Shown here piece by piece: positions 1,793 through 32,700 of a DNA stretch of 49,609 nt. Numbering within the stretch: position 1 is the first letter of the stretch; every line of letters begins with the position of its first letter. The notes below the pieces were generated by a model. That model was not told the origin of the DNA and searched no databases. It was given only the letters and a program-made list of their open reading frames with translations. This DNA comes from Elusimicrobiota bacterium (GTDB lineage: Bacteria > Elusimicrobiota > Elusimicrobia > UBA1565). The translations under genes and the position numbers were made by a program. The stretch is taken from assembly GCA_016196755.1 (NCBI GenBank), contig JACPXC010000035.1, positions 1 to 49,609 on the forward strand, given 5' to 3'.

Positions 1793-1796
1793 CCCC

Positions 1797-3493: not shown

Positions 3494-3510
3494 TGTCGGC
3501 TCTTCGTCCA

Positions 3511-3516
3511 AGGAGG
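3511..3516 (+). promoter_or_regulatory. Shine-Dalgarno AGGAGG deciding the reductase start
   Basis: AGGAGG with a 5-nt spacer to ATG 3522. It favours this start over an in-frame ATG at 3480 that would overlap the lyase gene and add 14 residues outside the family pattern. Confidence 0.75.
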
Positions 3517-3521
3517 CAGGC

Positions 3522-7553: not shown

Positions 7554-7590
7554 TTGAACTATTGTATACCACTACTATAAAAAAGTTCAA
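7554..7590 (-). promoter_or_regulatory. Promoter with flanking inverted repeat for the first AAA/DUF4143 gene
   Basis: On the minus strand a TTGAAC -35 (7585-7590) is followed by an 18-nt spacer and a TACAAT -10 (7561-7566), then 7 nt to the ATG at 7551-7553. A 7-bp inverted repeat (TTGAACT/AGTTCAA, 7554-7560 and 7584-7590) spans the promoter: one arm overlaps the -35, the other the expected start site. No Shine-Dalgarno is present, so a leaderless mRNA is likely. The repeat could be an operator. Confidence 0.6.
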
Positions 7591-7623
7591 GATGCCCTCC
7601 GGGATAGCTAAGAAGCGGGGCCG

Positions 7624-8998: not shown

Positions 8999-11900
8999 GT
9001 GCGCGGTCGGAAGGGGGCGTTCGCGTCGGGCTATCGCTTTGTGCGCGCGCGCGCGCGAATTTATATATATAGCGCGGCCCTCCTCCTCCTCGCGGCCCTC
9101 CCCCAGGTCCTCCTAGCCGCCGCCTGCGACACGACCAAGTACGTCAAGAAGGCTGCCGGGGCGGGCGACCACCAGAGCATCCAGGCCGCGGTCGACGCCG
9201 TCCCGAGCACGCTGACCGGCAACTACTGCATCTACGTCGACTCCGATACGTACACGGAGGCGGTCTTCATCACCGGCAAGAATCCCACGCCGGCCTACCG
9301 CCTGACCATCCAGTCCGACCCCGGGATGGTCGGTACCTTCACGCTGATCGTCCCCCCGGGGGGCTCGGGTGCCGGCTTCGAGGTCCAAAACGCCAGCGTG
9401 ACGATCGCGAACTTCATGATCCGCGCCCTCAACACGGTGAACTACGGCGTGGTGACGAGCTCGTTTAACGTGGTGCTCTCCAGCGTGAACGTCGACTCGG
9501 CCAACCCCGGCCGGATCCAGGCCGCGGGCATGTCGCTGGCCGGGCAGAACTTCGTGACCAACTCGAGCGTCACGATCCGGACCCTCGACGTCAGCGCCAT
9601 GTACCTGGAGGGCAGCACGGCGACCACCGTGGCGTTCAGCACGGCGCAGAACAACAGCGCCACCGTCTCCGCGGTCTACCTCGACGGCGCCTCCTCGAAC
9701 ACGTTCACCTCCTTCTTGGCCGACAACCCCCTGGCGGGCAACTCCATAAGCCTCACCAACGGCTCCCATTTCAACTCCGTCATCCGCAGCACCATCTCGG
9801 CCAACGACGCGGACTCCTTCCCGCTCTGGATCAACGCCTCCTCGAGCAACACGATCACGCGCTCCTACATCCGCAACCCGGTGGGCTGGGGCGCCTTCAT
9901 CGACGGCGGTTCCGAGTACAACGAGATAAGCGACAGCACGGCCGCCATCACCAACAACAACGGCCGCGCGGCGGTCTACGTGGGAGGGGCCAGCTACAAC
10001 CGGTTCATCCGCGGCTATTTCGTCAACACCACTGGCCACGGGTTCACGTTCGACGACGCCCACGGCAACTCGATCAGCCAGAGCACGATGACCGGAGGCA
10101 CCGCGTACTTCGCCGGCTTGATCTTCGTCACCGGCAGCTCGAGCAACACGGTGACGGACTCCTACATCCAGAACCTGGCCGGCTACGGGGTCCAGTTCGG
10201 GGGCGGCTCCACGCTCAATACCGTCAGCGGGAGCACGATGGTCTCCAAGGGCAACGCGGGCAACGCGGCCCTCCTCGTCGAGGAGGCGTCCTCGAGCAAC
10301 ACCATCACGGGCTCGATGATCGTCAACCCGTTCGGCCACGGCGCTTTCCTGCTGACGGGGGCCCACTACAACACCATCAGCCTCAGCACGATCACCGCCA
10401 ACCACGCGGACTACAACGCCCTCTACCTCGAGGGCTCGGACGGAAACGCGGTGACGGGCAGCTACCTGCAGAACCAGTTGGGTAAGACCATGCGGCTGGA
10501 CGACTCGCATCATAGCCTCATCTCCGGCAGCACGATCATGACGGACCTCAGCTGGGGCCCCGCGCTCGAGCTCTGGGATTCGGACACCAACACCGTGACC
10601 GGCTCGATGATCAAGAATACCGGCTACGACGGCCTGTGGGTCCAGGGCGGCTCCGTGTTCAACACGGTCAGCCTGAGCACGGTGATCGGCACGGGCTCCG
10701 GGGACACCACCGCCGTCTACCTCGACAATGCGTCGAGTACCACCATCAGCGGGACCTACATGTACAACCCGTTGTCGACCGCGCTGGTGCTCCTGAACCT
10801 CTCGAATTACAACTCCGTCAAGTACAGCACGATGGTCTCCGGCTCCTCGGGCGACTCGGCGCTCTACCTCAACAACGCGGACCGCAACACCATCGCCGAC
10901 TCCATGGTCGTCAACCCCACGGGCTACGGCGCCTACCTGGAGGTCGGCTCGAACTTCAACACCATCATCCGCAGCACGATGGCCACCGCTTCGGCGGGCG
11001 CGAACGTCCCGGGCCTCTATGTGATCGGTTCGGACTCCAACAACATCCTGGACTCCTACGTCACGGGCTCGACGGCGGCCATCATCACGAACTCCGACAG
11101 CGTGGTGTTCGGCGGGTCGACTCTGGTGGGCGCCGATATCCACGGCAACGCCCTGTTCTTCGAAAGCGGCACCCACCTGACGGTGACCACCGGCACTCTC
11201 AAGGGCGGCTCCGGGCGCGGAGCGGCGCTGAGCGTCGCAAACGGTTATCTGGGTGCGGTCAAGGTCACGACCACGACCATCACCGGCGGCGGCTCCGGCG
11301 TCTTCATGGGCACGCCCGGGGGCGGGAGCACGCTGTTTATGTCCTCGATCACGCTCTCCGACCTGTCCCCGGCGGCCACCGGGGTGCGCTTCCGGGGCGG
11401 CGTCATCGTGTCGACCCTGGCCGGGTTCGGCTTCAACGACAGCGACATCGACGTGAACGTCAACGGCGCCCTACTGACGGGGGTCTCGCGCGTGACGATG
11501 CGAACCCCCACGGGCGTTCGCAGCGGGGAGGCCTTCGAGGTCGACGCAGGCAACAAGGTCTATTGGCTGGATCCCCTCCAGCCGCCCGGCACCTGCACCA
11601 CGACGAAGTACGTGAAGAAGGCCGCCGGCGCGGGCGACCATCAGACCATCCAAGACGCCGTCGACTCGGTGCCGGCCACCGTCATCGGAGACTACTGCAT
11701 CTTCGTCGACTCGAGCCCCTACTCGGAGAGCGTCGTCATCGCCAACAAGGACACCCGGAACCTCTACCGCCTCAAGATCCTCTCCGACCCGGCGATGCTC
11801 AGCACCGCCACGCCGATCATCCCGCCGGTCAATTCGACGGCGGCGTTCGTCGTCTGGAACGCCAGCGTGACGATCGGCGGGTTCAACGTCATCTCCACCA

Positions 11901-14900
11901 ACTCGGTGAGCTACGGCGTGCTGGCTTCCTCGGCCAATATCTTCATCTCCAGCGTTAACGTGGACTCGGGCGGCAACGTCAAGGTCGCCGGGATGCTGTT
12001 GGGAAGCCACAATACCCTCAGCAACTCCAGCGTCACGGTGCAGGCAGCCCACGGGATCTCGCTGCCGGCGGCAAGCTCGATGACGACGGTCTCTTACAGC
12101 ACCGCGCAGGCCAACGGCGGCGGTACCCGCGCGCTCTATCTCAACGGCGCCGACAGCAACACGGTGACGGGTTCCTACATCCATAGCCTGGCGGGTCACT
12201 GCGCCTACCTGGAATCCGGCGCCGATTACAACCGCATCAGCCAGAGCACCATGGTCTCCAGCGACGTCTCGACTTCCGGGCTTTATATCCAAGCCTCCGA
12301 CAGCAACACGGTGACGGGCTCCTACATCCAGAACCTGGCGGGTTACGGAGCCCGTCTGAACTCCGGCTCCGACTACAACAGCATCAGCCAGAGCACCATG
12401 GTCTCCAACAACTCCACGAATCGCGCGCTTGCTATCCAAAACTCCGCCAGCAACACGGTGACGGGCTCCTACATCCAGAACCTGGCGGGTTACAGCGCCT
12501 ATCTGACCGGCGCCGACTACAACAGCATCAGCCAGAGCACCATGGTCTCCAACGCCGCAGGGGGTTTCGCGTTCTTTCTCCCCGGGGACAGCAACACGGT
12601 GACGGGCTCCTACATGCAGAACCTGGCGGGTTACGGCGCCTATCTGACCGGCGCCGACTACAACAGCATCAGCGAGAGCACCATGGTCTCCAACTCGTCG
12701 AGCCTCTACGCGCTGTATATCAACGCCGACAGCAACATGGTGAGGGGCTCCTACATCCAGAACCTGGCGGGTTACGGCGCCTATCTGACCGGCGCCGACT
12801 TTAACACCATCATCCGCAGCACCATGATCTCCGCCTCCGCCACGGCCGACCGCTACGCCCTCTTCATCATCGCGTCTTCCTCCAACAGCGTCTTGGACTC
12901 CTACATCCAAGGCTCCACCGCCGCCTTCATCTCGAACTCGACCGGCACCGTCATCGGCGGCTCCGTGCTGGTGGCCACCCACACGACGGGTGGGGCGTTC
13001 TACATGAGCGGCGGCGTGAACCTGACCCTGGCCAGCAGCACCCTGCGGGGCGGCACGGCGGGTACGGCGCTGGGCCTCGGCCCGAACGTCGGGCAGATCT
13101 TCCTCTCGACTATCACGGTGGTCGGCGGCGCGCGCGGCCTCGAACTCGCCGCGCCGGTGACCGGACTGGTCCTGGCCGTGACCTCCGTGACCTTGGCCAA
13201 CGTCGAAGCGTCCGGCGTCGGCCTGCGCTTCCTAGGCGGGGTCCACGTGACCACCGTCACCGCGATGGCCTTTAGTGACGCCGACATAAACGTGAACGTC
13301 GACGGCGCCGCGCTCTCGGCCGGCTCGCGGGTGACCATGCGCCAGGACGCGGGGGAGAAGAGGGGCTTCCCCTACGAGGCCGACCCGTCGGGCTACGTGG
13401 ATTGGCCGGATTACGTGCTGGAGCCCCCCGGCACCTGCACCACGACGAGGTACGTGAAGAAGGCCGCCGGCGCGGGCGACCATCAGAGCATCCAGGCCGC
13501 CGTCGACGCGGTGCCGGCGACGGTCTACGGCGACTACTGCATCTTCGTGGACTCGAGCCCCTACTCGGAGACCGTGGTCATCGCCAATAAGAACACCCAG
13601 ACCCTCTATCGGCTCAAGATCCTTTCCGACCCGGCGATGGTCAGCACCGCCACCCCGATCATCCCGCCGCTCCTGTCGACGGCGGCCTTCGTCGTCTGGA
13701 ACGCCAGCGTCACCATCGGGGGCTTCAACGTCATCTCCACCAACTCGGTGAGCTACGGCGTCTACGCCTCCTCGGGCTGGGTGAGCATCTCCAGCGTCAA
13801 CGTGGACTCGGGGGGGAACATCGGCTACGCGGGCGTTAAGCTCTCGAGCTGGTCGCTCATCGAGAACTCCAGCATCACGGTCCAGAACGCGCATGGCATC
13901 TGGCTCGACGCCGCGGCGGCCAACGCGCGGGTCAGGGTCTCGACGGCGCTGGCGGACTCGGGGGCTGCCAACGCGCTGTTTATCAACGGGGCCGATAGCG
14001 GCACGGTGACGGGCTCCTACATCCAGAACCTGGCGGGATACGGCGCCTACCTCGGCACCGGCTCCGATTACAACACCATAAGCCAGAGCACCATAGTTTC
14101 CAACGCCGGCGGCGGCCGCGCGCTCTACCTCTTAGGCGCCGACAGCAACACGGTGACGGGCTCCTACATGCAGAACCTGGCGGGCTACGGCGCCTCCCTG
14201 GACACCGGCTCCGATTACAACACCATAAGCCAGAGCACCATGGTTTCCAACGCCCCCAGCTACCGCGCGCTCTACCTCAACGCCGCCGACAGCAACACGG
14301 TGACGGGCTCCTACATCCAGAACCTGGCGGGTAACGGCGCCTTCCTGACCAACGGATCCGAATACAACACCATAAGCCAAAGCACCATGGTCTCCAACGC
14401 CACAAACATGATGGCGCTTTACTTAAACGGCGTCGACCGCAACACGGTGACGGACTCCTACATGCAAAGTCTGGCGGGTTACGGCGCCTTCCTGGCCAGC
14501 GACTCCGACTACAACACCATAAGCCAGAGCACCATGGTTTCCAACTCCGCAAGCTACCGCGCGCTCTACTTAAATGCCTCCGACAGCAACACGGTGACGG
14601 GCTCCTACATCCAGAACCTAGCCGGTGACGGCGCCTACCTGACCGCCGCCTCCGCCTACAACACCATAAGCCAGAGCACTATGGTCTCCGATGGCGTCAA
14701 CTATCGCGCGCTCTTTCTCACCAACGCCGACGGCAACACGGTGACGGGCTCCTACATGGAGAGCCTGGAGGGTCACGGGGCCTGGCTGGCCAGCGACTCC
14801 AAATACAACACGATCATCCGCAGCACGATGACCTCGGTCTCCGCCACGGCCAATCGCTACGGCCTGCAAATCGTCGCGTCCTCCTCCAACACGGTCCTCG

Positions 14901-17900
14901 ACTCCTACGTCCAGGGCTCCACCGCCGTCTTCATCACCGGTTCGACCGGCACGGTCATCGGCGGCAGCGTGCTGGTGGCGACGAGCACGACCGGCAGCGC
15001 GCTGTATTTCCAGGCCGGCGTGAATCTGACCGTGGCCTCGAGCACCCTGCGCGGCGGGACGGCCCAGCGCGCCCTCGGCATCGCGGCGGGCAATGCCGGC
15101 CGGCTCGAGTTCTCGACGATCACCGTCGTAGGCGGCGGGCGGGGCCTGGAGTTGGGCGCTTTCCTTCCCGGCGCGGATCTGGCCGTCACCTCCGTGACCC
15201 TGGCCGGCGCGGAGCCCACGGGCACCGGCGTGCATTTCCTGGGCGGGGTCGTCGTAGCGACGATCACCGCGGCGGCCTTCGACGACGCGGGCATCGGCGT
15301 GAACGTCGACGGTTCGGCGCTCTCGGCCGGCTCGCGGGTGACGATGCGCGAAGACGCGGGGACCAAGACCGGTCCTGCCTATGAGAGCGACCCCTCGGGC
15401 TACGTCGATTGGCCCGATTTCACGATCGCGCCCCCCGGCACCTGCAACCTCACCCGCACCGTCAAGAAGACCCCGGGGGCCGGCGACCACACCTCGATCC
15501 AGGCCGCCGTCGACGCGATCCCGGCGAACGTCTACGGCGACTACTGCATCCACGTCGACTCGAGCCCCTATTCCGAGAGCGTGGTGGTCGCCAACAAGAA
15601 CACGCAGAACCTTTACCGCATCAAGATCCTCTCCGACCCGGCGATGGTGAGCACCGCCACCCCGATCATCCCGCCGCTCCTGTCGACGGCGGCCTTCGTC
15701 ATCGCCAACGCCAGCGTCACCATCGGGGGCTTTAACGTCCGCGCCGAGAACCCCGTGACCTTCGGGGTCTACGCCGCCTCGGCTAGCATCGTCATCTCCA
15801 GCGTCAACGTGGACGGCTACGGCAACGTCACCGATTCCGGCATGCTGCTGCTCAGCCACGTCACCGTCTCCAGGAGCAGCGTCACGGTGGGCAACGCCTA
15901 CGGCTTCCAGCTCCTGGGCGGAACGCGGACGACCGTCTCCCACAGCACGGCCTTGGTCAACGCGCTCAACCTGGCCGCCTTCAACGTGACGGCCGACAGC
16001 AACACGGTGGCGGACTCCCATATCGAGAACCTGGGGGGGCGGGCCTTGCGCTTCAACGGCGCGGCGGAGTACAACTCGGTCCTACGGAGCACCGTCATCG
16101 CCGCGCACGCCAGCAGGACGGCGTTGGACATCACCAGCGGCGACTACAACTCGGTGAGCCAGTCCTACATCCAGAACCTGCTCGGCAACGCCCTGCAGAT
16201 CATAACCGGCAACGGGAACAGCCTCGTCGGGAGCACGGTCATCGCCCGCGCCGCCAACAAGTTCGCCGTCCGCATCGATGATTCCGACCTCGTCGAGATC
16301 TCGGGCTCCTACGTGGAGAACCTCGACGGCGACGCGCTGAGCCTGGAGAGCAACTCCAACCTCAACTCCATCGTCGATAGCACCTTGGTCTCCGACCAGG
16401 GCGGCTACGCGGCGCTCTACATCACCGCCTCCGACAGCAACACGGTGACCGGCTCCACCATCCGCAACCTGTTGGGCAACGCCGCCCACCTGCGCACCGG
16501 CTCCGAGGCCAACGTCATAAGCCTCAGCACGATGGTCTCGGCCGCCGGAGCTTTCATCGGCTACTATCTCAACGCCTCGCACAACAACACCGTGACGGGC
16601 TCCTACATCCAGAACCTGACGGGTACGGCCGCGGCCTTCCAGAACGGGGCCGACAAGAACACCATCAGCCAGAGCACGATGGTCGCCAACGGCGCGGGCG
16701 ACGTGTGCCTCTACCTCGACGGCTCCGACAGCAACACCGTCACCGGCTCCTACGCGCAGAACCTGCTCGGCGACGGCATCGCGATCTACCTCGGCGCCGA
16801 CAACAACACCATCATCCGGAGCACCGTCGTCACCGATGCCGCCGACCGCTTCGCCATCGTGGTCGCCTCCTCGGCGTATGCCGGCATCTTCGACTCCTAC
16901 GTCCAGGGCGCCTCGGCCGTCTACGTGACGGGCTCGACGGGCACCGTCATCGGGGGCTCCTACCTCGTCGCCGCCAACCCCTTGGGCAACGCCCTCGACA
17001 TGGCCGGCGGCAGCGTCGGCCTGCTCGTGGCGACGAGCACCGTGCGGGGCGGACGGACCGGGCTCGTGATCGAGCCCGGCAGCAGCGGGCAGTTCAGCGT
17101 CACGACGGTGACGGTGGTCGGCGGCGCCCGCGCCGTCGAGGTCGGGACTCCCGGGGCGGGGATGTCGCTGTTTGTCTCCTCGCTGACGCTGGCCGACCTC
17201 GACCCGGCTTCGACGGCCATCCGCTTCACCGGAGGGGTCTACGTCTCCACCTTCTCCGGGGTCGCGTTCGACGACGCGGGCATCGGCGTGAACGTCGACG
17301 GCGCCGGACTCTTGGCGGGCTCGCGGGTGAGCATGCGCGATGACGCGGGGACGAAGACCGGTCCTTCCTATGAGAACGACCCCTCGGGCTACGTCGATTG
17401 GCCGGATTACGTCCCGGCGCCCCCCGGCACCTGCGAGACGACCCGCACCGTGAAGAAGGCCCCGGGCGCGGGCGACCACGCCTCGATCCAGGCCGCCGTC
17501 GACGCCATCCCGGCGACGGTCTACGGCGACTACTGCATCCACGTCGACTCTAGCCCCTATTCCGAGAGCGTGGTGATCGCCAACAAGAACACGCAGAACC
17601 TCTACCGCATCAAGATCCTCTCCGACCCGGCCATGCTCAGCACGGCCACGCCGATCATCCCGCCGGTCATGTCGACGGCCGCGTTCGTCATCTGGAACGC
17701 CAGCGTGACCATCGGAGGCTTCAACGTCATCTCCACCAACTCGGTGAGCTACGGCGTCTTGGCCTCCTCGGCCAATATCGTCATCTCCAGCGTGAACGTG
17801 GACTCGGGCGGCAACGTCAAGGTCGCCGGGATGCAGCTGGGAAGTCAGAACACCCTCAGCAACTCCAGCGTCACGGTCCAGAACGCCTATGGGCTCTATC

Positions 17901-18553
17901 TGGCCAATAGCTCCATGACATCGGTAGCCTCCAGCTCCGCCCAGGCCAACGGCCTGATGATCTCGGCCTGGTATCTCCTGGGGGCCTCGTCGAACGCCTT
18001 CACCCTCTCTTTGGCCAGCAATCCGGCGGGCTCCGCCGCCGTGCTCGACGACGGCTCCACGAACAACGCCATCAGCCTGAGTTCCATGGTCTCCAGCCTC
18101 ACCGGCGACTTCGGGCTCGCCTTGCAAGGCGCCGTCGGCAACACGGTGACGGGCTCCTACATCCAGAATCTGGCGGGCGACGCGGCCTACATGGACAGCA
18201 ATTCCGCCCACAACACCATCAGCCAGAGCACCATGGTCTCCAACGCCGGCGGCTACATCGGGCTCAACCTGTTCGGCGACAGCAACACGGTGACGGGCTC
18301 CTACATGCAGAGCCTGGCGGGCTACGGCGCCTACCTGCAGTCCGGCGCCGACCATAACGTGATCAGCCTCAGCACCATGGTCTCCAACCACGACAGCTAT
18401 CGCGCGCTCTACTTGGGCGGCGCCGACAGCAACACGGTGACGGGCTCCTACATCCAGAACCTGGCGGGCGACGGCGCCTTGCTCAACACCGGCGCCGACT
18501 ACAACACGATCAGCCAGAGCACCATGGTCTCCAACGTCGCGGCCGCGCTTTAG
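8999..18553 (+). CDS. Giant secreted beta-helix repeat protein, N-terminal part (ends at premature TAG)
   Basis: This 3184-residue frame begins at GTG 8999 and stops at TAG 18551-18553. A basic stretch is followed by a hydrophobic core (IYIYSAALLLLAALPQVLLAAA, residues 21-42). This is a Sec signal peptide with an Ala-rich cleavage region directly before Cys43. A second in-frame GTG at 9041 (residue 15) would give a shorter, more typical signal peptide but has no ribosome site. After the signal come modules 1-4 and the start of module 5. Each module is a pectinesterase-like head, tandem 47-49-residue coil pairs, a cap and a linker. The protein is rich in Ser, Thr, Asn, Gly and Ala, and the heads lack recognisable pectinesterase catalytic motifs, so a structural or adhesive surface role is inferred. 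The TAG replaces a Tyr conserved in the repeat, and the repeat continues past it. The ORF is therefore probably a truncated part of a longer gene rather than a complete one. Confidence 0.85.
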   Translation: MRGRKGAFASGYRFVRARARIYIYSAALLLLAALPQVLLAAACDTTKYVKKAAGAGDHQSIQAAVDAVPSTLTGNYCIYVDSDTYTEAVFITGKNPTPAYRLTIQSDPGMVGTFTLIVPPGGSGAGFEVQNASVTIANFMIRALNTVNYGVVTSSFNVVLSSVNVDSANPGRIQAAGMSLAGQNFVTNSSVTIRTLDVSAMYLEGSTATTVAFSTAQNNSATVSAVYLDGASSNTFTSFLADNPLAGNSISLTNGSHFNSVIRSTISANDADSFPLWINASSSNTITRSYIRNPVGWGAFIDGGSEYNEISDSTAAITNNNGRAAVYVGGASYNRFIRGYFVNTTGHGFTFDDAHGNSISQSTMTGGTAYFAGLIFVTGSSSNTVTDSYIQNLAGYGVQFGGGSTLNTVSGSTMVSKGNAGNAALLVEEASSSNTITGSMIVNPFGHGAFLLTGAHYNTISLSTITANHADYNALYLEGSDGNAVTGSYLQNQLGKTMRLDDSHHSLISGSTIMTDLSWGPALELWDSDTNTVTGSMIKNTGYDGLWVQGGSVFNTVSLSTVIGTGSGDTTAVYLDNASSTTISGTYMYNPLSTALVLLNLSNYNSVKYSTMVSGSSGDSALYLNNADRNTIADSMVVNPTGYGAYLEVGSNFNTIIRSTMATASAGANVPGLYVIGSDSNNILDSYVTGSTAAIITNSDSVVFGGSTLVGADIHGNALFFESGTHLTVTTGTLKGGSGRGAALSVANGYLGAVKVTTTTITGGGSGVFMGTPGGGSTLFMSSITLSDLSPAATGVRFRGGVIVSTLAGFGFNDSDIDVNVNGALLTGVSRVTMRTPTGVRSGEAFEVDAGNKVYWLDPLQPPGTCTTTKYVKKAAGAGDHQTIQDAVDSVPATVIGDYCIFVDSSPYSESVVIANKDTRNLYRLKILSDPAMLSTATPIIPPVNSTAAFVVWNASVTIGGFNVISTNSVSYGVLASSANIFISSVNVDSGGNVKVAGMLLGSHNTLSNSSVTVQAAHGISLPAASSMTTVSYSTAQANGGGTRALYLNGADSNTVTGSYIHSLAGHCAYLESGADYNRISQSTMVSSDVSTSGLYIQASDSNTVTGSYIQNLAGYGARLNSGSDYNSISQSTMVSNNSTNRALAIQNSASNTVTGSYIQNLAGYSAYLTGADYNSISQSTMVSNAAGGFAFFLPGDSNTVTGSYMQNLAGYGAYLTGADYNSISESTMVSNSSSLYALYINADSNMVRGSYIQNLAGYGAYLTGADFNTIIRSTMISASATADRYALFIIASSSNSVLDSYIQGSTAAFISNSTGTVIGGSVLVATHTTGGAFYMSGGVNLTLASSTLRGGTAGTALGLGPNVGQIFLSTITVVGGARGLELAAPVTGLVLAVTSVTLANVEASGVGLRFLGGVHVTTVTAMAFSDADINVNVDGAALSAGSRVTMRQDAGEKRGFPYEADPSGYVDWPDYVLEPPGTCTTTRYVKKAAGAGDHQSIQAAVDAVPATVYGDYCIFVDSSPYSETVVIANKNTQTLYRLKILSDPAMVSTATPIIPPLLSTAAFVVWNASVTIGGFNVISTNSVSYGVYASSGWVSISSVNVDSGGNIGYAGVKLSSWSLIENSSITVQNAHGIWLDAAAANARVRVSTALADSGAANALFINGADSGTVTGSYIQNLAGYGAYLGTGSDYNTISQSTIVSNAGGGRALYLLGADSNTVTGSYMQNLAGYGASLDTGSDYNTISQSTMVSNAPSYRALYLNAADSNTVTGSYIQNLAGNGAFLTNGSEYNTISQSTMVSNATNMMALYLNGVDRNTVTDSYMQSLAGYGAFLASDSDYNTISQSTMVSNSASYRALYLNASDSNTVTGSYIQNLAGDGAYLTAASAYNTISQSTMVSDGVNYRALFLTNADGNTVTGSYMESLEGHGAWLASDSKYNTIIRSTMTSVSATANRYGLQIVASSSNTVLDSYVQGSTAVFITGSTGTVIGGSVLVATSTTGSALYFQAGVNLTVASSTLRGGTAQRALGIAAGNAGRLEFSTITVVGGGRGLELGAFLPGADLAVTSVTLAGAEPTGTGVHFLGGVVVATITAAAFDDAGIGVNVDGSALSAGSRVTMREDAGTKTGPAYESDPSGYVDWPDFTIAPPGTCNLTRTVKKTPGAGDHTSIQAAVDAIPANVYGDYCIHVDSSPYSESVVVANKNTQNLYRIKILSDPAMVSTATPIIPPLLSTAAFVIANASVTIGGFNVRAENPVTFGVYAASASIVISSVNVDGYGNVTDSGMLLLSHVTVSRSSVTVGNAYGFQLLGGTRTTVSHSTALVNALNLAAFNVTADSNTVADSHIENLGGRALRFNGAAEYNSVLRSTVIAAHASRTALDITSGDYNSVSQSYIQNLLGNALQIITGNGNSLVGSTVIARAANKFAVRIDDSDLVEISGSYVENLDGDALSLESNSNLNSIVDSTLVSDQGGYAALYITASDSNTVTGSTIRNLLGNAAHLRTGSEANVISLSTMVSAAGAFIGYYLNASHNNTVTGSYIQNLTGTAAAFQNGADKNTISQSTMVANGAGDVCLYLDGSDSNTVTGSYAQNLLGDGIAIYLGADNNTIIRSTVVTDAADRFAIVVASSAYAGIFDSYVQGASAVYVTGSTGTVIGGSYLVAANPLGNALDMAGGSVGLLVATSTVRGGRTGLVIEPGSSGQFSVTTVTVVGGARAVEVGTPGAGMSLFVSSLTLADLDPASTAIRFTGGVYVSTFSGVAFDDAGIGVNVDGAGLLAGSRVSMRDDAGTKTGPSYENDPSGYVDWPDYVPAPPGTCETTRTVKKAPGAGDHASIQAAVDAIPATVYGDYCIHVDSSPYSESVVIANKNTQNLYRIKILSDPAMLSTATPIIPPVMSTAAFVIWNASVTIGGFNVISTNSVSYGVLASSANIVISSVNVDSGGNVKVAGMQLGSQNTLSNSSVTVQNAYGLYLANSSMTSVASSSAQANGLMISAWYLLGASSNAFTLSLASNPAGSAAVLDDGSTNNAISLSSMVSSLTGDFGLALQGAVGNTVTGSYIQNLAGDAAYMDSNSAHNTISQSTMVSNAGGYIGLNLFGDSNTVTGSYMQSLAGYGAYLQSGADHNVISLSTMVSNHDSYRALYLGGADSNTVTGSYIQNLAGDGALLNTGADYNTISQSTMVSNVAAAL
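9043..9071 (+). repeat. Dinucleotide tracts (GC)7 and (TA)5 in the signal-peptide coding region
   Basis: A 15-nt alternating GC tract (9043-9057) is separated by four bases from a 10-nt TA tract (9062-9071). Both lie between the preferred GTG start and the hydrophobic core of the signal peptide. Length change by slippage would shift the frame of the whole protein. Confidence 0.75.
9125..11593 (+). repeat. Beta-helix module 1 (type A head)
   Basis: This 823-codon module begins at Cys43, right after the signal peptide. The head ends with the second Cys of NYC. About nine coil pairs follow, and they are the most divergent in the locus, with few exact copies of the later consensus NTVTGSY. The cap starts near 11040, and the linker is atypical (VYWLDPLQPPGTC instead of DWPD). 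Its divergence suggests the oldest module, or one under separate constraint next to the N-terminus. Confidence 0.8.
11594..13435 (+). repeat. Beta-helix module 2 (type A head)
   Basis: This 614-codon module has the head C-x33-C followed by PYSESVVIANK and NASVTIGGFNVIST. About five coil pairs of consensus NTVTGSYIQNLAGYGAYL / NTISQSTMVSN follow, spaced 141-147 nt. The cap starts near 12885 and the linker reads DPSGYVDWPDYVLEPPGTC. Coil pairs here are close copies of each other at DNA level. Confidence 0.85.
13436..15442 (+). repeat. Beta-helix module 3 (type A head)
   Basis: This 669-codon module has about six coil pairs (13.99-14.82 kb) and a cap near 14885. That cap is the variant reading SALYFQAGVNLTVASSTL, reused almost identically in modules 7, 9, 10 and 11. 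The post-head segment (IGYAGVKLSSWSLIENSS) is shared almost exactly with module 6, showing exchange of sub-blocks between distant modules. Confidence 0.85.
15443..17431 (+). repeat. Beta-helix module 4 (type A head)
   Basis: This 663-codon module has about six coil pairs with more varied sequence (for example NTVADSHIENL, YNSVSQSYIQNL, VEISGSYVENL). The cap starts near 16880. The head has threonine in place of the usual tyrosine (TRTVKKTPGAGDH), a variant also seen in modules 5, 7/8 and 11. Confidence 0.85.
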
Positions 18554-20705
18554 ATCAGCGATTCCGAGAGCAACACGGTGACGGGCTCCTACATGGAGGG
18601 CCTCGCAAACGCCGCCCGCCATGGTCACCATCGGTTCCGACGGCGCCGCGCTTTATATCGAGGGCTCCGACAGCAACACGGTGACGGGTTCCTACATCCA
18701 GAACCTGACGGGTGACGGCGCCGCTATGGTGTCCGGCGCCGACTACAACAGCATCAGCCGGAGCACCATGGTCTCCAACGTCGGCGGGGATGCGGCGCTC
18801 TACATCAACGCATCCGAGAGCAACACGGTGACGGGCTCCTACATCGAGAACCTTGGGGGCTACGCCGCCTACCTTAGCAATGGCGCCGATTTTAACACCG
18901 TCAGCCAGAGCACCATGGTCTCCAACGCCGCCGGCCTCTACGCGCTCTATCTCAACGGCGTCGACGACAACGCCGTGGCGGGCTCCTACATGCTCAACCT
19001 GGCCGGCACGGCCGCGCGCTTGGAGACCGGCTCCGAGCGCAACGCGATAAGCCTCAGCACGATGGTCTCCGCGGCCGCCGGGAAGTTCGGGCTCGACGTC
19101 TTCGCCGCCGCCAGCAACACCGTGACGGGCTCCTACCTGCAGAACCTGGCCGGCGACGCGGTGCTCCTGCACTACGGGGCCGACTACAACACGATAAGCC
19201 TCAGCACCATGGTCGGCGGCTCCTCGAGCTACCGGGCGCTCTATATCCTCTCGGCCGACAGCAACACGGTGACGGGCTCGTTGATGCTCAACCCGGCGGG
19301 CGACGCGGTGTCGCTGGACACCGGCAGCGAGTACAACACGATCGCCCTGAGCACGATGGTTTCTTCCGCCGCCTCCTATCGGGCCCTGCTCATCACCGAT
19401 TCCGACCGCAACGCCGTGGCGGGCTCCTATCTCCAGAACCTGGGAGGCGACGCCGCCATGCTCATCTCTGGGGCCGATGAGAACTCCATCGAAGAGAGCC
19501 GCCTGGTGGCCAGCGGCGACGGCCGGGTCGCCCTCTACGTGATCGGTTCCGACAGCAACTCGGTGACGGGCTCCCATCTCGAGAACCTGATCGGGCACGG
19601 CGCGCGTTTGGAGGGCGGCGCGGAGAACAACGTCATCAGCCAGAGCACCATGGTCTCCGATGCCGCCCCCCATTACGCCTTCTACCTTTACGGGACCGAC
19701 AGCAACACGGTGACGGGCTCTTTCATGCGGAACTTGACCGGCACCGCGGCCCGCCTGGAGTCGGGCTCGGAGCGCAACACCATAAGCCTCAGCACGATGA
19801 TCGCCGCCGCGAGCGGGAAGCTGGCGCTCTATCTCTTCGGCGCAGACAGCAACACGGTGACGGGCTCCTATCTGGAGAACGCGGCCGGCCCCGCCGTCAT
19901 CCTGGCCTCCAACGCCGAGTACAACGCGATCCTGCTCAGCACCATGGTCTCGGGCTCGACCAACGACAAGGCGCTCTATCTCAACGAATCCGACCACAAT
20001 ACCGTGGCGGACTCCATCATGCGCAACACGGCGGGCTCCGGTGCCCACCTCGACACGGGCTCCGACTTCAACGCCGTCATCCGCAGCACCATGAGCTCCG
20101 CCTCCGTCACGGCCGGGCGCTACGGCCTGCATATCGTGGCGGCCTCCTCCAACACGATCCTGGACTCCTACGTCCAGGGCTCGACCGCCGCCTTCATCGA
20201 CCGCTCGACGGGGACCGCCATCGGAGGCAGCGTCTTCGCGGCGACGGCCGTCTCCGGTGGCGCCCTCTTCGTCTATGGGGGGGTCAACCTGACGCTGGCC
20301 TCGAGCACGCTCTCGGGCGGACCCGCGGGCCTGGCGCTGGGCATCGGGGCCAACAACGCCGGACGCTTCGATATCTCGACGATCACGGTGGTCGGCGGCG
20401 CGTTCGGCGTCCAGGTAGGAGCTCCGCTTCCGGCCATGACGCTAGCCATGACCTCGGTGACCCTGGCCGACCAGGAACCCGGCGCGACAGGCCTGCGCTA
20501 TCTGGGCGGCGTCCACGTGGCCACCGTCACCGCGATGGCCTTCGCCGACTCGGGTCTAGCCGTGAACGTCGACGGCGCAGGACTCTCGGGCGGCTCGCGG
20601 GTGACGATGCGCGAGGACGCGGGGGGGAGGACCGGTCCTCCTTATGAGACCGACCCCTCGGGCTTGGTGGATTGGCCGGACTATGTCCCGCCGCCGGCCG
20701 GCGTC
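17432..20705 (+). repeat. Beta-helix module 5, interrupted by stop and frameshift
   Basis: This is the longest simple array, with about fourteen coil pairs and a cap near 20155. Its length of 3274 nt is not a multiple of three, because a deletion near 18620 moves the repeat from the first frame to the next. All other complete modules are multiples of three. Coils before and after the lesion follow the same consensus. Confidence 0.85.
18551..18620 (+). other. Frame lesion: nonsense codon plus frameshifting deletion
   Basis: The codon after 'AAAL' is TAG where the repeat elsewhere has a Tyr codon (ALY-I/L), so one base change explains it. The old frame continues to read ISDSESNTVTGSYMEGLANAAR and then loses the pattern near 18610-18620. 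From 18621 the repeat resumes (MVTIGSDGAALYIEGSDSN) in another frame. Most of one coil (about 18-20 residues between 'NAAR' and 'MV') is missing. The new frame has a TGA at 18579-18581, so the two frames do not overlap usefully. No Shine-Dalgarno at a normal distance precedes ATG 18621. Either the gene is truly broken or the assembly is wrong at a near-identical repeat. Confidence 0.85.
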
Positions 20706-23700
20706 TGCGCCACGACCCGCTATGTGAAGAAGATCCCGGGGGCGGGAGACCACACCGGCATCCAGGCCGCCGTCGACGCCATCCCGGCGACGGTTTACGG
20801 CGACTACTGCATCCACGTCGACTCGAGCTCCTATTCCGAGAGCGTGGTGATCGCCAACAAGAACACGCAGAATATCTACCGCATCAAGATCCTCTCAGAC
20901 CCGGCCATGCTCAGCACGGCCACGCCGATCATCCCGCCGGTCATGTCGACGGCCGCGTTCGTCATCTGGAACGCCAGCGTGACCATCGGCGGGTTTAACG
21001 TCAGATCCACCAACCCGGTGACCTTCGGCGTCTACGCCTCCTCGGGCTGGGTGGCCATCTCCAGCGTCAACGTGGACTCGGGGGGGAACATCGGCTACGC
21101 GGGCGTTAAGCTCTCGAGCTGGTCGCTCATCGAGAACTCCAGCATCACGGTCCAGAACGCGCATGGCATCTGGCTGGACGCCGCGGTGACGCGTTCCATC
21201 GTCCGGGTGTCGACCGCGCTGGCGGACACGCTCTCGACGACCCGCCACGCGCTCTTCTTGGAGGGAGCTGACACCAACACGGTGACCGGCTCCTTCATCC
21301 AGAACCTGTCGGGCTTCGCCGCCCGGCTGGATTCCGCCGCCGATTACAACGCCATAACCCAGAGCACCATGGTGTCCAATGCCGCCAGCAACGCCGCGCT
21401 CTATATATTCGGCTCCGACAGCAACACGGTGACCGGCTCCTACATGCAGAACCTGGCGGGCTACGGCGCCCGCCTCCAGTCCGGCGCCGACTCCAACACC
21501 ATCGCTCAGAGCACCATGGTGTCCAGGGCCGCGAGCGTCTCCGCGCTCTATATGGACGTGGCCGACAGCAACACCGTGACGGGCTCCTACATCGAGAACT
21601 TGGCGGGCTTCGGCGCCTATATCAACACGAACTCCGACTATAACGCCATCATCTTGAGCACGATGGTCTCGAACCAGGCCGGCTTCTACGCGCTGCGGCT
21701 CGGCGCCGCCGACTACAACGCGGTGACCGGCTCCTACATGCAGAACCTCGCGGGTGACGCCGCCTCCTTGACCAACGGTTCCGATTTCAACACCATGAGC
21801 CAGAGCACGGCGGTCTCCAACGCCGCCAACCGCGCGGCGCTGCACCTTCTCAACGCCGCCTCCAACACCTTCAGCGGGTCGATGTTCCAAAACCTCGCGG
21901 GGACCGCGGCCTTCCTGGGCGCGGGAGCCTACTCCAACAACCTCGTCTTGAGCACCATGGCCAGCGCGGCCTCGGGCGGCTACGCGCTCTACGCCCTCAA
22001 CGCCGACACCAACGTGGTGGACGCTTCCTTCCTCTACAACGCCGCCGGCCACGCGGTCATGTTGGACGTGGGCGCCGATAGGACCACGATCATGCGCAGC
22101 ACGGCGGTCTCCGAAGGCGAGGCCTACTCCGCTCTGTACGTGACGAGTTCGGGCAGCGGCACGTTCGTGAACTCGTACTTCCAGAACCTGGCGGGCGACG
22201 GCGTCCGTCTGAGCACCGGTTCGGACTTCAACACCATCTCCTACAGCACCATGGTCTCGATGACCCACCAACGCTTCGCGCTCTGGCTCACGGCCGCCGG
22301 CGGCAATTCGGTGACGGATTCCTTCATCAGCAATCTGGGGGGCCATGGCGCCCTTTTTGAGAGCTATTCCAGCCTCAACTCCATCAGCCGGAGCACGATA
22401 GTCGTCAGCGGCGCGGGGGCCGACCGGGCGCTCTTTCTAAAATACTCCGACAGCAACACGGTGACGGGCTCGTATCTCCAGAACCTGGCCGGCCGCGGCA
22501 TACTCATCGATAGTTCCGCCCATAACACCATCAGTCAGAGCACCGTGGCGACCAACAGCACCTTGAAGGCGATCCAGGTCAACGGCTCATCCCACAATGT
22601 CATCACCGGTTCCTATATCCGCAACCTGGACCGCCTGGCCCTCAGCTTCGAGAATAATTCCGCCTTTAACACCGTAAGCCAGAGCACCGTGGTGTCCAAC
22701 AGCTCTTTGGACGACACGTTGATCATCAAGAACTCCGATTCCAATACGATCACCGGCAGCTACATCCATAACGCGGCCGGCACCGCCCTCCGCCTGGAGC
22801 AGGGCGCCGACCAAAACACGATCAGCCAGAGCACCATGGTCTCCAACGCCTCCGCGTATTCCGCGCTTTCTATCGACGCTTCCGCCGGCAACACGGTGAC
22901 GGGCTCCTGGATGCAGAACCTAGCCGGCGACGCCGCTTCGCTCACCAACGGCTCCGCGAGCAACTTGATAAGCCAAAGCGAGATGGTCTCCAACACCACG
23001 GGCAAGAACGCGCTGGTTATAAGCGACAGCGACTCCAATATCGTCACCCAGTCCACCATCGACAACGGCGCCGGCACGGCGCTCTTTCTCCAGGGAATGA
23101 GCAACACAGTGGCGCGCAGCACCGTGACCAGCCGCTTTGAAGCCGAGCCTGCCGTACGCATCAGCTCGGCGCAGGACACCTGGATCGTCGATTCCTACAT
23201 TCAAGGCTCGACGGCCGCGTGGGTGAGCGCCTCCACGCGCACCACCTTCGGCGGCTCGGTCTTCGTGGCCACGCACGCTTTCGGATACGGCCTCCTGGTC
23301 GTCGCCGGCGGAGAGGATCTGACGGTGGCTTCCAGCACCCTTTTGGGCGGCCGCTTCGCCGCCGGGATCAGCATCCAGCCGGGCTTCGGAGGGCTGATCC
23401 GGATCTCCACCAACTCACTGCTCGACGCGGCCGTCGGCTTCGGCGCCTCCTTCCTGCGCTCCGATGCCCGCCTATGGGTCACCTCCAACACGGTGACCTT
23501 CGCTGAAGAGAGCTTCCAGACTTGGGGCGTCGTCACCGAGGGCTTGACCGGCGGCGCCACGATCCAAAACAACGCCATCACCTTGACTCGCTCGCGGGGG
23601 ACGGGGGCTTACCCCGCCAATATCGCCGTCTACGACTCCCAAGGCTTCGTCATCACCCACAATCGCCTCTCCAATCCGGGGGCCGCCCAGGCGAACTTCA

Positions 23701-26700
23701 TCATCCTGGAATACAGCAACCTGGATTTCGCCAAGAGCGAGTACAACGACATCCATTCGACCGGGACGGGCCTGACCTACGGCCGCCTCGTGCGCTACGT
23801 AAACGGAACCTCCTATGTCACGGGCCGCAACTCGATCTACGCCTCATCCCATACGGCGGCGGATTTTTACTTCGTGGAGATCGACGCCGCGAGCCAAACC
23901 GGGCTCTACGGCGACTACAACAATTACTTCTCGTCGAACTCGACGCGGCAGGCCTTGTGGGGCGCCGCGGTCTGCCAACTCCCGTATTGGACCGGCGCGG
24001 GCTGCCCCGGAGCGGAACCCAACTCGACGACCAACCACCCGCAATGGGCGGCGATGGGCTACGACTTCCATCCCAGATCGGCCGGCGGACGCTGGACGCC
24101 CGGCGGCTTCGTCGCCGACGCGGCGACGTCGTTGACCATCGACGCGGGCGACCCCGCCGACGACTTCTCCGATGAGACCGCCCCTAACGGCGGGCGGGTC
24201 AACCAAGGCTCCTACGGCAACACCGTCGAAGCCAGCCGCTCGATAGACTTCTGCGCCGAGCTCGTCTCAGCGGGAGCCGGTCCGGCCGACTGGTCGGCGC
24301 CGGAATCGTGGGTGCCGGTTTTGACGCCGACGGCCTGCAACGCGGTCACGATTCAGGCCGGCCACCAGATCACGGTGGATACCCTGGAGGCCACGGCCTC
24401 CTCGACCACCATCGAAGGACGCCTTTCCTTCAGCCGCGCCGCGCCTTCCAGCTTCACCGTGGTCGGCGGCTCCATCACCGTGACCCCCACCGGCCACCTC
24501 GACATGGGCACCGAGGCCAGCCCCATCGCCCTGGGGATGACGGCCCATCTGGTCCTGGCCAAGGGCTCGGGCGCCGCGCGCTACGGCTTGACCATTGAAA
24601 ACGGCGGCGCTTTCACGGTGCGAGGCGCCACCAAGACCCCCTACGGCTACGCCACCGAGACGATCCCCGAAGATGCCACGACCCTGAAAGTAGCGCTCGC
24701 TTCCACCGAGAACTGGGGGGCGGGCGATAGCATCACCATCGGCCCGACCGACCGCGCCGTCAACGGCACCGGGCCCTCCAGCGTCTGGCGGGCCACGATC
24801 ACGGCCGTCTCGGGAGCGGACCCCAACGTCGTCACCTTCGCGCCGGCACTCGACACCGCCCGGGTGCTGACGGCCACCAGCCCCATCGTCGTCTCTAACC
24901 TGACCCGCAACGTGCTCGTGCGCTCCTCCGGGACGGATACGTCCTCCGGCGGCGACACGGCCTATGTCTCCAACCTGGCGCGCAACGCCACCAGCTTCAA
25001 CCTGGCCTACGGCGAGTTCGCCCACATCGGCACCGCCGAAAACGTCACTGCCGCCATCGTCTTCGAGGCGGGCTCGCTGGGATCGATTTCGAGCTCCAGC
25101 TTTCGCGAAGGCTACAACGGCGTCCACATCTACGCTTCTTCCAACATCACCGTCTTCGCCAACACCTTCTATTCCAACTCAAACTACGGCATTTCCCTTT
25201 GGGACGGGTCCAACAACGCCATAAGCGCCAACAACTCCCACGCCAATGCAAAATACGGCATCCGCCTCGACGGCGCCTCCGACAACAACGTCTTAAGCGG
25301 CAATAACTCCTACGGCAACGCGAATAGGGGCTTTAGCCTCGGCAACGCCTCCAACAACAACATCTTGAACTCCAACAGCGCCTACGCCAACTCAAGCTAC
25401 GGCATCCACCTCTTCAACGCCTCCGACTACAACACCTTGAGCGGCAATAACTCCTACGCGAACATAAACAGGGGCTTGAGCCTCGAGGACTCCTCCAACA
25501 ACACCTTGAGCGCCAACAACGCCTACGGCAATGACAACGTCGGCGTTTTCCTCATCGACGCCTCCAGCAACATCTTAAGCGCCAATAAGTTCCATGCCAA
25601 TGCGAGCCGGGGGATCGCCCTTACCGACGCCTCCTACAACACCTTGAGCGGCAATTACATCTACGGCAACGCAAGCTACGCCATTCTCCTTAACAATTCC
25701 ATCGACAATGCCATCCTTGGAGGCGCCCTGGGCTATGACGCCGCCGGCAATGCCTCGGAAAACGCGATTACGGAGATATTCTTCAACAACACCGGCGCCG
25801 AGAACCTTGTTCTAAAGAGCGTACGGATAAACCCCGCCAATGGATTCAACGCCACCGGCCTCAACCGCGCCGGAAACCACATCCTGTCCTACGCCCAGGA
25901 CTACGCGAGCGGCACCCTGCGGGTCTATGGCGACTACACCCTCTCAGGCGCCACGTGGACGCTCCAGCACGATGTGCGCGTGAGCACCTCGCTGTTTACG
26001 ACGCCCAAGCTCATGCGCGGCATAGGCGGAGGCCACGGCGCCGCGGTCTGCTCCACCAGCGACGCCGACGCCGTCAGCCAGCTCGTCACTCTCGAGTTCA
26101 ACGGCGCGGACTGGACGGTCACCGGCTCCTCCACCGGGGCCATGGGGACCATCGCGGCCGGCTCCTGCCAAGCCATCGGCGGCGGCCAAGCCTCGGTGAA
26201 CATCACCGGGCTCACGCCTCAAACCGGCGACCGCCTCGACTTCATCCTGATCGCCGCCTCCCCGGCCGCCGATATCCAAAAAAGGCTGCTCTTCGGCCCG
26301 GCGGCGGCGGGCTTTAACGGAGGCAAGTCCAAGCTCACCATCGCCCCGGACGCGGGCATCGTCTTCCAAGGCGCCGAGGGCGCGCATACCTTGATAGATC
26401 GCCTCAACGACGCCTCGACCTACTACACCTTCGTGGCCTCAGGCGCCTTCACCGCCCGCTTCTCGTCCTTCACCAACATGGACTTCGGCGGCATCCAGCT
26501 TGCGGGCGATAAGGGCGTCACCCTCTCCAGCTCCACTTTCGACGCTCTCGGCTTCGCCGCCGGCACCAACGCCTACATCACCGCGCGCGATCTGACCTCG
26601 AGCGGCGTCTTCGACAACGTCCGATTCGGCGTAAGCCGCTCGAGCCACGGCTACGACTCGGCCACCAATGTGCGCGTCGAAAACGGCGACTCGAATCTCG

Positions 26701-29700
26701 ATTGGTTCTTCACCACGGCTTCAAGCGGCCTTTGGGGCGAGGACCATGACGACGAGCTCGGCGCGTCCAACAAGGTGCGCTGGTATCTGGCCGAAGCCCT
26801 GCCGCCTTACTGCGCGAGCGGCTTCAACGTCAGGAAGGACGGCACGCAGGATTACACCGCGATCGGGCCCGCGCTCGACGCCTTGACGAAGGATCTGACC
26901 GGGAACGCCTGCGTGGTCGTGCGCGACGCTGAGACCTACGCCGAGCAGGTGACGGTGGAAGGCTTCACCAACAACGGCTTCCGGGTCTATGTCGAGGCCG
27001 TCGGCGGCTTGGCGCCGACGGTGGCGCCGCCGACGGCGTCGACCGCGGCTTTCGACTTGAAAAACGCCTCGGTCAGCATCGTGAACTTCGCGGTGCGCCC
27101 GACGGTCGATGCGGTGAGCTACGGCGTGCTGGCTTCCTCGGCCAATATCGTCATCTCCAGCGTCAACGTCGATTCCGCAGGCAATATCCGGGTCGCCGGG
27201 ATGAGGCTGGCGAGTTACGTCGCCGTCACGAACTCCAGCGTGACGGTCCAAGCCGCCTACGGGATGGATTTCCTCGCCGGCAGCTCCATGTCCGCCATCT
27301 CCTACAGCAGCGCCCAAGCCAACAGCTCGGTCTTCGCCGCCCTCTACGTCAACAACGCCTCCTCCCATACCTTCGACGTCTTCCTCGCCAGCAACCCGGC
27401 CGGCGAGGCGGCCTTCCTGACCGGGGGCGCCGCGTACAATGCGATCTCCCGCAGCACGATGTCGGCCAGCAGCGCGGGGGGCATCGCGCTGTGGGTCTCG
27501 GGCTCCCACAACAACACGGTGACGGCCTCCTTCATCTACAACCGGGGAGGGGCGGACGCGCTCCGCCTCGACGCGGCGTCTTCCTTCAACGTGATCGCGC
27601 AGAGCACGATGACGGCCAGCAGCGTCGGAGACCTCGCCTTCTTCGCGATCGGGGCCTCCAGCAACACCGTTACGGGTTCGACGATGCGCAACACCGTGGG
27701 CACGGCCGCGCGTCTTGACAGCGCCTCGGACTACAACGCCATCGTCAACAGCACGTTGACCGCCAACGCCGCGGGCTATCGGGGGCTCATCATCGCGGGT
27801 TCGGACAACAACACGGTATCGGCGAGCTACATCCAGAACCTGGCCGGCGACGGGGCCTACCTGGATTCCGGCTCGGCCTACAACAGCATCAGCCAGAGCA
27901 CCATGGTATCGAATGGGACGAACCATCACGGCCTCTATTTGAACGGCGCCGACAGCAACACCGTGACGGGCTCGTATATCCAAGGCCTTTCGGCCGGCGG
28001 GGTCATGCTGGAGGCGGGAGCCGACTTCAATGCGATCGCCCAGAGCACGATGCTCGCCGGCGGGGCCGGTTTCCAGGCGCTCTATATCGACGCCTCGGAC
28101 AGCAACACGGTGACGGGCTCCTATATGCAGAACCTGAGCGGGGAGGCCGTCAACCTGACGGGCGCCGACCGCAACATCGTCTCCCAGAGCACCATGGTCT
28201 CCAACGCCGTCGGCAGCTACGCTCTGCAGCTCAGCGGCGCCGACGAAAATTCCGTGCTCGGCTCCTATATCCGCAACCCCTTCGGGCCCGGCGCCTCGCT
28301 CGTGTCCGGTTCGGACCTAAACGCCGTCAGCCAGAGCACCATCTCCACCAACGGCACGGCGAGCGCGCTCTACCTGGCCGCCTCCGACAGCAACACCGTG
28401 ACCGCCTCCTACCTGCAGGCGGCGGCGGGCTTCGGCGCTTCCATCGACAGCGGCGCCGACTACAACACGATAAGCCAGAGCACCATGGTCTCCAGCGCCG
28501 GGGCCTACAGCGCCCTCTACGTGGCCTCGCAGCGCAACAGCGTCACGGGCTCCTTCATGGCTAGCCTCGCCGGCTACGCCGCGTCCCTGGAGGCCGGCGC
28601 CAACCACAACGCCATCAGCCTGAGCACGATGGTCTCCGGCGGCGCCTTCCCGGCCCTGAACCTCGTCTCCGCGGCCTCCAACACGGTATCGGGCTCCTAT
28701 ATCCAGGGCTCCACCGCCGTCGTCATCTCGCGCTCGACCGGGACGCTCATCGGCGGCAGCGTGCTGGTGGCGACGAGCACGACGGGAAGCGCCCTGTATT
28801 TCCAGGCCGGCGTGAACCTGACCGTGGCCTCGAGCACCCTGCGCGGCGGGACGGCCCAGCGCGCCCTAGGCATCGCGGCGGGCAATGCCGGCAGGCTCGA
28901 GCTCTCGACGCTCACCATCGTGGGAGGCGGCCGCGGTTTGGAGCTGGGCGCTCCCCTTCCCGGCGCGGACCTGGCCGTCACCTCCGTGACCCTGGCCGGC
29001 GCGGAGCCCGCGGGCACCGGCGTGCATTTCCTCGGCGGGGTCGTCGTCGCGACGCTCACCGCCGCGGCCTTCGATGACGCGGGCATCGGCGTAAACGTCG
29101 ACGGCGCGGCGCTCTCGGCCGGCTCGCGGGTGACGATGCGCGAGGACGCGGGGACCAAGACCGGCCCTTCCTATGAGAACGACCCCTCGGGCTACGTCGA
29201 TTGGCCCGATTTCACGCCGGCGCCCCCGGGCACCTGCGGCACGACCCGCACCGTCAAGAAGACCCCCGGGGCGGGCGACCATGCCTCGATCCAGGCCGCC
29301 GTCGACGCCATCCCGGCGACGCTCTACGGCGACTACTGCATCCATGTCGACTCAAGCCCCTACTCGGAGTCGGTCGTCGTCGCCAACAAGGACACCCAGA
29401 CCCTGTACCGCATCAAGATCCTCTCCGACCCGGCGATGGTGAGCACGGCCACGCCCATCATCCCGCCGGTCAAGTCGACGGCGGCCTTCGTCGTCTGGAA
29501 CGCCAGCGTGACGATCGGCGGCTTCAACGTGATCTCGACGAACTCGGTCACCTACGGCGTGCTGGCGTCTTCGATGAACATCGTCATCTCCAGCGTCAAC
29601 GTCGACTCCGGAGGAAACATCGTCACCGCCGGCATGCAGCTGGGGAGCCATAACACCGTCTCGGACTCCAGCGTCACCGCGGTGAGCGCTTACGGATTCT

Positions 29701-32700
29701 CTCTCAACGGTTCTTCCGCGACGAGCATCTCCTATTCCACGGCCCAGGCGGTCTCCACGTTCGCTCTCTTTGTGAGCGCCGCTTCTTCCAATACCTTCAC
29801 TCAAAATGTCCTCTCCGGCACTTATGGCGGGTATTTCCAAACCGGCTCGAACTACAACACGATCCAACGCAGCAGCTTCACCGGCTCCGCGGTCGGCTTG
29901 AATTTTTTCTCCGGGACATCCTACAACACGGTCACCCAAAGTCGCATGTCCAGCCCCGATGGCCGCGGAATGGCGTTCGCCTCTGGCGCCGATTACAACG
30001 ACGTCAGCCTGAGCACCATAACCAGCGCCAACGGGACCAACGCGGCCTTGTTCATCTGGTCGGCGTCGAGCAACAGCGTCAGCCAAAGCTATATCTTCAA
30101 CTCCGCGGGCCACGCCGCCTGGCTGGATAACTCCGCCGCCTACAACAGCATCAGCCAGAGCACCATGGTCTCCAACGGCCCCGGTTATGCCGCGCTCCGG
30201 TTAAGCAACGCGGACCGCACCGCCGTGACGGGCTCCCTCATGCGGAGCATGCCGGGCTATGGCGCCTACCTGGACAACGGCTCCGATCACAACGAGCTCA
30301 CCCAGAGCACCATGGTCTCCAACGCGGCGAGCTACAGCGCGCTCTATATCGGCGCTTCCGCCAGCAACACCGTGACGGGCTCCTACGCCGCCAACCTTGC
30401 CGGCGACGGCGCCTATCTGGCCTCCGGCGCCGATGACAACGCCATCAGCCAGAGCACGGTGGTCTCGGTCAACAGCTACGCGCTCTGGGTCGTGGACGCC
30501 GACAGGAACGTGATCTCGGGCTCCTACATCTTGGGCCAGGAGGCCTTCGGCCTCGTTTTGGACGCCGGCGCGGACGATAACACCGTCAGCCAGAGCACGC
30601 TGACCGTCTTCGGCGGCTACGCGCTCTATCTCGAGAACGCCGACGCCAACGAGGTGACGGGCTCCTACATCGAGAGCCAGGATGATTGGGCCGTCGTCAT
30701 GAGTCTCAGCGACGACAACCTCATCAGCCAGAGCACGATGGTCTCCATCGGCGGCTATGCGCTCGATGTATACGGCTCCGACCGGAACACCGTGACGGGC
30801 TCCTATATCGAGGGCCGGGGCGGCTTCGGCGCCTACGTGGAGAGCGGCTCCGATCTCAACGCCATCATCCAGAGCACCGTGGTCGCTACCGGAGGCGAGG
30901 CGCTGTTCTTTAGCGCCTCCGACAGCAACACCGTGACGGGCTCCTATATAGGCGGGCTGGTCGAGCACAGCGCCAACCTGACCAACGGGGCCGACTATAA
31001 CACCATCAGCCAGAGCACCATCGTCGCCAGCGACGCGGACTATAAGGCGCTCCATATCTTCGCCTCCGACCGGAACACCGTGATGGACTCCTCCATCCGG
31101 CACCTGGCCGGAGACGCGGTTTACCTGTCCACCGGCGCCGACCATAACACCATCATCCGCAGCAGCCTGACCTCCTTGGCCGCGATGGCCGGGCGCTACG
31201 GCCTCTTCTTGCTGCAGAACTCCTCCAACACGGTCCTCGACTCCTACATCCAAGGCTCCACCGCCGCCTTCTTCAAAGGCTCGACCGGCGCTGTCATCGG
31301 CGGCAGCGTGCTGGTGGCTACCCACACGACCGGCGCCGCGTTCTTCATGCACGGCGGCGTGAACCTGACCTTGACCACCAGCACCCTGCGCGGCGGCACG
31401 GCGGGCGTGGGTGTGGGGCTCGGCGCGGGCAACGCGGGCCTGCTCGAGGTGACGACGGTCACCGTGGTGGGCGGCGGGCCCGGCGTCCAGGTGGGGGCTC
31501 CGGGGACCGGGATGACCCTGTTCTTGTCCTCGATCACCCTGGCGGACCAAAGCCCCGGCTCCACGGGCTTGCGCTTCTTGGGCGGCGTCCATGTGACGAC
31601 CGTCACCGCGATGGCGTTCAACGACTCGGGTATCAGCGTCAACGTCGACGGCGCGGCGCTCTCGGCGGGCTCCCGGGTGACGATGCGCTCCGACGCCGGG
31701 CCTAAGACGGGTATCCCTCACGAGAACGATCCCTCGGGCTATGTCGACTGGCCGGACTACGTCGTCCCCGAGGGCGTCTGCGTCACGACCCGCTACGTCA
31801 AGAAGGAGGCTGGCGCCGGCGACCACCAGAGCATCCAGGCCGCCGTCGACGCCATCCCCGCCGTGGTCTACGGCGACTACTGCATCTTCGTGGACTCGAG
31901 CCCGTACTCGGAGAGCGTGGTCATCGCCAACAAGGACACCCAGACCCTCTACCGGCTCAAGATCCTCTCCGCCCCGGCGATGGTGAGCACGGCCACGCCG
32001 GTCATCCCGCCGGTCAACTCGACGGCGGCGTTCGTCGTCTGGAACGCCAGCGTGACGCTCGGCGGCTTCAATATCATCTCGACGAACTCGGTCACCTACG
32101 GCGTGCTGGCGTCTTCGATGAACATCGTCATCTCCAGCGTCAACGTGGACTCGGGCGGCAACGTCAAGGTCGCCGGGATGCTGTTGGGAAGCCACAACAC
32201 CGTCAGCCGTTCGAGCGTCACGGTGCAGGCCGCGCACGGGATGTCGCTGCCGGCATCGAGCTCGATGACGGCGATCTCTTACAGCACCGCGCAGGCCGAC
32301 AGCACCTCTTTTTTCGCTCTCTATCTTAACGGCTCCGACAGCAACACGGTGACGGGCTCCTACATCAAGAACCTGGGGGACGGCGCCTATCTGGTTTCCG
32401 GCGCCGACTACAACAGCATCAGCCAGAGCACCATGCTCGCCAACGCGTCGGGCCGCAGAGCGCTCTATATCAACGGCTCCGACAGCAACACGGTGACGGG
32501 CTCCTACCTCCAGAACCCGGGGACTGGTTACGGAGCTCACCTGTTAAATGCCGACTACAACAGCATCAGCCAGAGCACGATGATCGTCAGCGGCAGCGCC
32601 CGCGCGCTCTATCTCGACGGTTCCGTCAGCAACACGGTGACGGGCTCCTACATCCAAAACCTGGCGGGTGACGGCGCCTCCCTGGCGTTCGGCGCCGACT

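Follow-up and report, generated by a model that had tools for sequence, protein, structure and literature searches.

Huge proteins have already been reported to abound in Elusimicrobiota (PMC11573180), and giant β-helix proteins of related phyla have been described (PMC12057145, citing West-Roberts et al. 2023 bioRxiv 10.1101/2023.11.21.568195). The gene analyzed here belongs to this known kind. It shares with the giant genes of Elusimicrobiota and Omnitrophota (PMC11573180; PMC12057145) a phylum enriched in huge proteins, great length, repetitiveness, probable secretion and β-helix domains, but the present copy is interrupted. We found no Elusimicrobiota β-helix gene with such a split in the literature. 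The break itself is ordinary unless mixed alleles exist. A second comparison is with truncated pseudogenes of bacterial surface proteins, which likewise carry a nonsense codon and a frameshift early in a large repetitive gene for a secreted protein. The present gene differs from these in having no other decay and in the unusual closeness of its lesions.

The window, meaning the entire 49,609-nucleotide stretch of DNA that was analyzed, is one whole contig (C66) of a draft genome of 4.59 Mb in 67 contigs. The β-helix gene extends from about position 8999 to the contig end and occupies more than 13,500 codons within the window. Its upstream open frame (8999..18553, plus strand, 3,184 codons) begins with a hydrophobic signal-like segment, continues through five capped right-handed β-helix modules and closes inside a coil at an in-frame TAG. 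The remainder of the same gene lies in the +1 frame as a downstream open frame of 10,342 codons (18582..49609, plus strand), which contains zero stops and runs off the contig. One flanking gene encodes a carboxyltransferase that shares 88% identity with a copy from an Elusimicrobia groundwater MAG, and its next best matches are also from Elusimicrobia, which places the genome in the phylum Elusimicrobiota. Two neighboring AAA_14/DUF4143 ATPase genes, with a mutual identity of about 25%, lie beside the giant gene on the minus strand (6342-8826).

Both sequence profiles and a structural model place the gene in the right-handed β-helix family. The upstream frame matches the Pfam profiles Beta_helix (PF13229; 1.6e-78, 262 bits against a cut-off of 25.9) and NosD (PF05048; 2.6e-62, 210 bits against a cut-off of 23.6), each above its curated threshold, and its modeled fold is a solenoid of stacked short parallel strands. 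AlphaFold2 models the 317 residues just upstream of the break as a regular right-handed β-helix of short strands, with a mean pLDDT of 89.4 and about 24 residues per helix turn. Foldseek identifies AlgE epimerases and Pel9A with E-values of about 5e-5; among solved structures, those of alginate epimerases, pectate lyase and phage tailspikes come closest in fold, at roughly 10% identity. The gene thus shares Pfam families and a confidently modeled β-helix with these proteins, but it is far longer and is built of 49-residue, two-turn units rich in Asn, Ser and Thr. The Pfam scan of the upstream part recognized no degradative domain besides the β-helix fold.

The 3′ end of the giant gene is probably carried by another contig of the same assembly, C64, as judged from sequence comparison. 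C66 breaks off within a module, and its final 282 bp (49328..49609, plus strand) match the start of reversed C64 in register with 93.3% identity; the next best matches to this segment reach about 78-88%. The differences within the overlap (49328-49609 against positions 1-282 of L011 reversed) are clustered, and the two copies may reflect strain variation at a single locus or a pair of neighboring modules. The C64 frame comprises 5,483 codons (16.4 kb) with no stop, and over its last 250 residues it is similar to the C-termini of five related genes (E-values of 1e-48 to 3e-66). Taken as one gene, C66 and C64 would perhaps encode about 19,000 codons. A gene for a small secreted-type protein follows the C64 frame (L011, reversed, from about 17336) and is also present at four of the five related loci, which suggests a conserved neighborhood of giant gene and small secreted-type gene; the loci with this arrangement are L011, L053, L064, L078 and L088.

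Two lesions within 70 bp split the giant frame, as the original prediction had described. The in-frame TAG (18551-18553, plus strand) closes the upstream frame at a position where other units most often have Tyr. The stop itself is confirmed, while the predicted change from Tyr to TAG stands only as an inference because the equivalent position varies among units: Tyr occurs in 38 of the 71 scored units, and Phe, Leu, Ala, Trp, Gln and others are also found. A Tyr codon is therefore the likely but not certain ancestor. The other lesion is a shortened unit (18572..18674, plus strand) of 103 bp. Unit spacing, taken between NTVTGSY-type anchors, has a mode of 147 bp (49 codons), against which the shortened unit is a net 44 bp short; among the 111 spacings measured, the interval 18572-18675 alone is not divisible by three. 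In an alignment made by eye against the 49-residue unit, residues 1-15 and 32-49 are retained, with 4 bp standing in place of about 16 codons (48 bp). The loss of "most of one coil" is likewise borne out, the net 44 bp being set against a helix turn of about 24 residues. The approximate deletion junction maps to 18611..18625 (plus strand), where words of at least 12 bases (around 18596-18640) are unique within the giant gene. Roughly 60 bp separate the TAG from the deletion, and this intervening sequence is a normal in-frame coil. The probability that two independent lesions would fall within 70 bp of each other is 0.0034 over 40.6 kb and drops to 0.0025 when C64 is included (57 kb). With clustering this tight, one complex event or one local error is likelier than two independent mutations.

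On the sequence, the upstream stop is a truncation rather than a gene boundary. In the assembly the frame is interrupted relative to intact homologs, as expected of a truncated gene. The upstream product has 0 residues beyond its last coil, against 327 to 4,320 in stop-ended relatives (two broken segments of the related stretch L067 are excluded from this comparison). We detected no promoter-like site in 18300-18900, nor an internal terminator. The first downstream ATG (18621) is not preceded by a Shine-Dalgarno-like motif, and the sequence beyond it is mid-coil. Neither a signal peptide nor a start site with a Shine-Dalgarno-like motif is seen in the downstream frame.

The two sides of the break are evolutionarily alike. 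Module pairs mostly have dN/dS values of 0.3-0.5, whether both members lie on one side of the break or the pair spans it. The halves also share exact repeats, the longest of 120 bp (13786/21056) and another of 92 bp (17624/20898). Together, the similar dN/dS values and the shared exact repeats indicate that both halves evolved as a single gene under selection. With two further pairs (35235/37761 and 38436/47940), the exact repeats between modules of the giant gene span 89-120 bp and point to recent duplication or gene conversion. At third codon positions, G+C amounts to 0.93 upstream of the break and to about 0.89-0.91 beyond it, and neither relaxed constraint nor further decay was found in either half, with both this measure and dN/dS being normal. 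Such a state is compatible solely with a very recent break. The repeat is otherwise free of stops, as predicted: there are none in the 31 kb downstream within the window or in the 16.4 kb C64 frame. For each 1% of neutral divergence, and assuming a transition bias of 4, about 5.8 stops are expected in the former and 3.15 in the latter. Neutral divergence since the break is thus bounded at roughly 0.35% or less (Poisson 95%), an estimate that rests on these assumptions; it would be nearer 0.1% if indels are counted at 5% of substitutions. Within this range, the prediction of a very recent break agrees with our results.

We lean modestly toward one very recent truncating mutation in what was formerly a giant secreted right-handed β-helix gene with a single frame. 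One local event would have produced both the stop codon and the 44-bp frame-shifting deletion about 60 bp away, the two lesions perhaps arising together through error-prone or template-switch repair. The 3,184-residue remnant might then be exported without its C-terminal region, or degraded, and the remainder of some 10,000 codons would not be produced as a secreted protein. The junction words are unique in the giant gene, so a de Bruijn assembler would have needed reads containing them. In the search for a donor template, only a weak 17-nt inverted match (18457/18610, 82%) was recovered, which is not convincing. A consensus or gap-closing error would give the same appearance, and this counts against a single mutation. 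Such an error, in which a false join, gap closure or low coverage introduced a wrong base and dropped 44 bp from a gene that is truly intact, is the main rival and a serious possibility, albeit one we judge somewhat improbable. It fits a 67-contig draft in which the gene also runs off into a contig end, the clustering of the lesions as at a poor contig end, and the lack of other decay in 47 kb of frame. It fits less well with the unique junction, with nearby exact repeats of at most 49 bp when repeats of up to 120 bp were assembled elsewhere in the gene, and with the normal in-frame coil of about 60 bp between the lesions. Read errors do not usually take the form of a 44-bp deletion. Other sampled genes of the genome are also unbroken, with an internal stop in none of 45 ABC_tran matches. 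As for the form of error originally proposed, an assembly collapse between near-identical repeats, it is not supported by the lengths of the exact repeats, those near the break being no longer than 49 bp and longer ones having been assembled elsewhere. A collapse of this kind would require long words in common, whereas the words at the junction are unique, and if in register it would leave the reading frame unchanged.

Explanations that place the break further back in time, or make it functional, fare worse. An older, decayed pseudogene that acquired its lesions independently would account for their being of different kinds, but independent lesions rarely lie so close, no additional stop or frameshift occurs in the 31 and 16 kb of frame, and codon-position G+C remains strong on both sides; we regard this history as quite unlikely. 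Repeat-rich bacterial surface proteins are often phase variable, and the intact frame on either side of the break could suggest programmed recoding or a phase-variable switch between short and long forms, as the original prediction had entertained. However, the upstream stop at 18553 and a stop of the downstream frame ending at 18581 mean that both read-through and a +1 shift would be required. Bypass by a single frameshift is thereby excluded; the upstream and downstream frames do not overlap. The break contains no simple tandem repeat, only weak inverted matches, and no stimulatory RNA structure (fold z-score of 0.08 against shuffles). Nor is it conserved: in 40 stretches from relatives, covering 371 kb of coil-bearing frame outside the present genome, the only other broken β-helix array is L067 (G053:C348), which comes from a fragmented genome and has one frameshift and one run of N at sites unrelated to the present break. 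These sites lie on the reversed strand around 13690-13710 and 8620-8630. A programmed or switchable break is accordingly the least probable of all the readings, and that proposal is not supported. No clear orthologous locus was recovered from genomes of the genus or family by means of the flanking ATPase gene and the N-terminal module.

A further and improbable reading is that giant repeat genes of this kind remain intact over 30-57 kb because recombination among neighboring units purges lesions, with the present break being a fresh lesion in a living population whose broken and intact alleles coexist. More generally, caution is needed before a giant frame that is split in a draft genome is taken as biology. 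Our survey indicates that the giant β-helix frames of the phylum are otherwise almost never broken, implying that selection normally acts along their entire length. If the break described here is real, it would put a date on the loss of one of the largest genes in bacteria.
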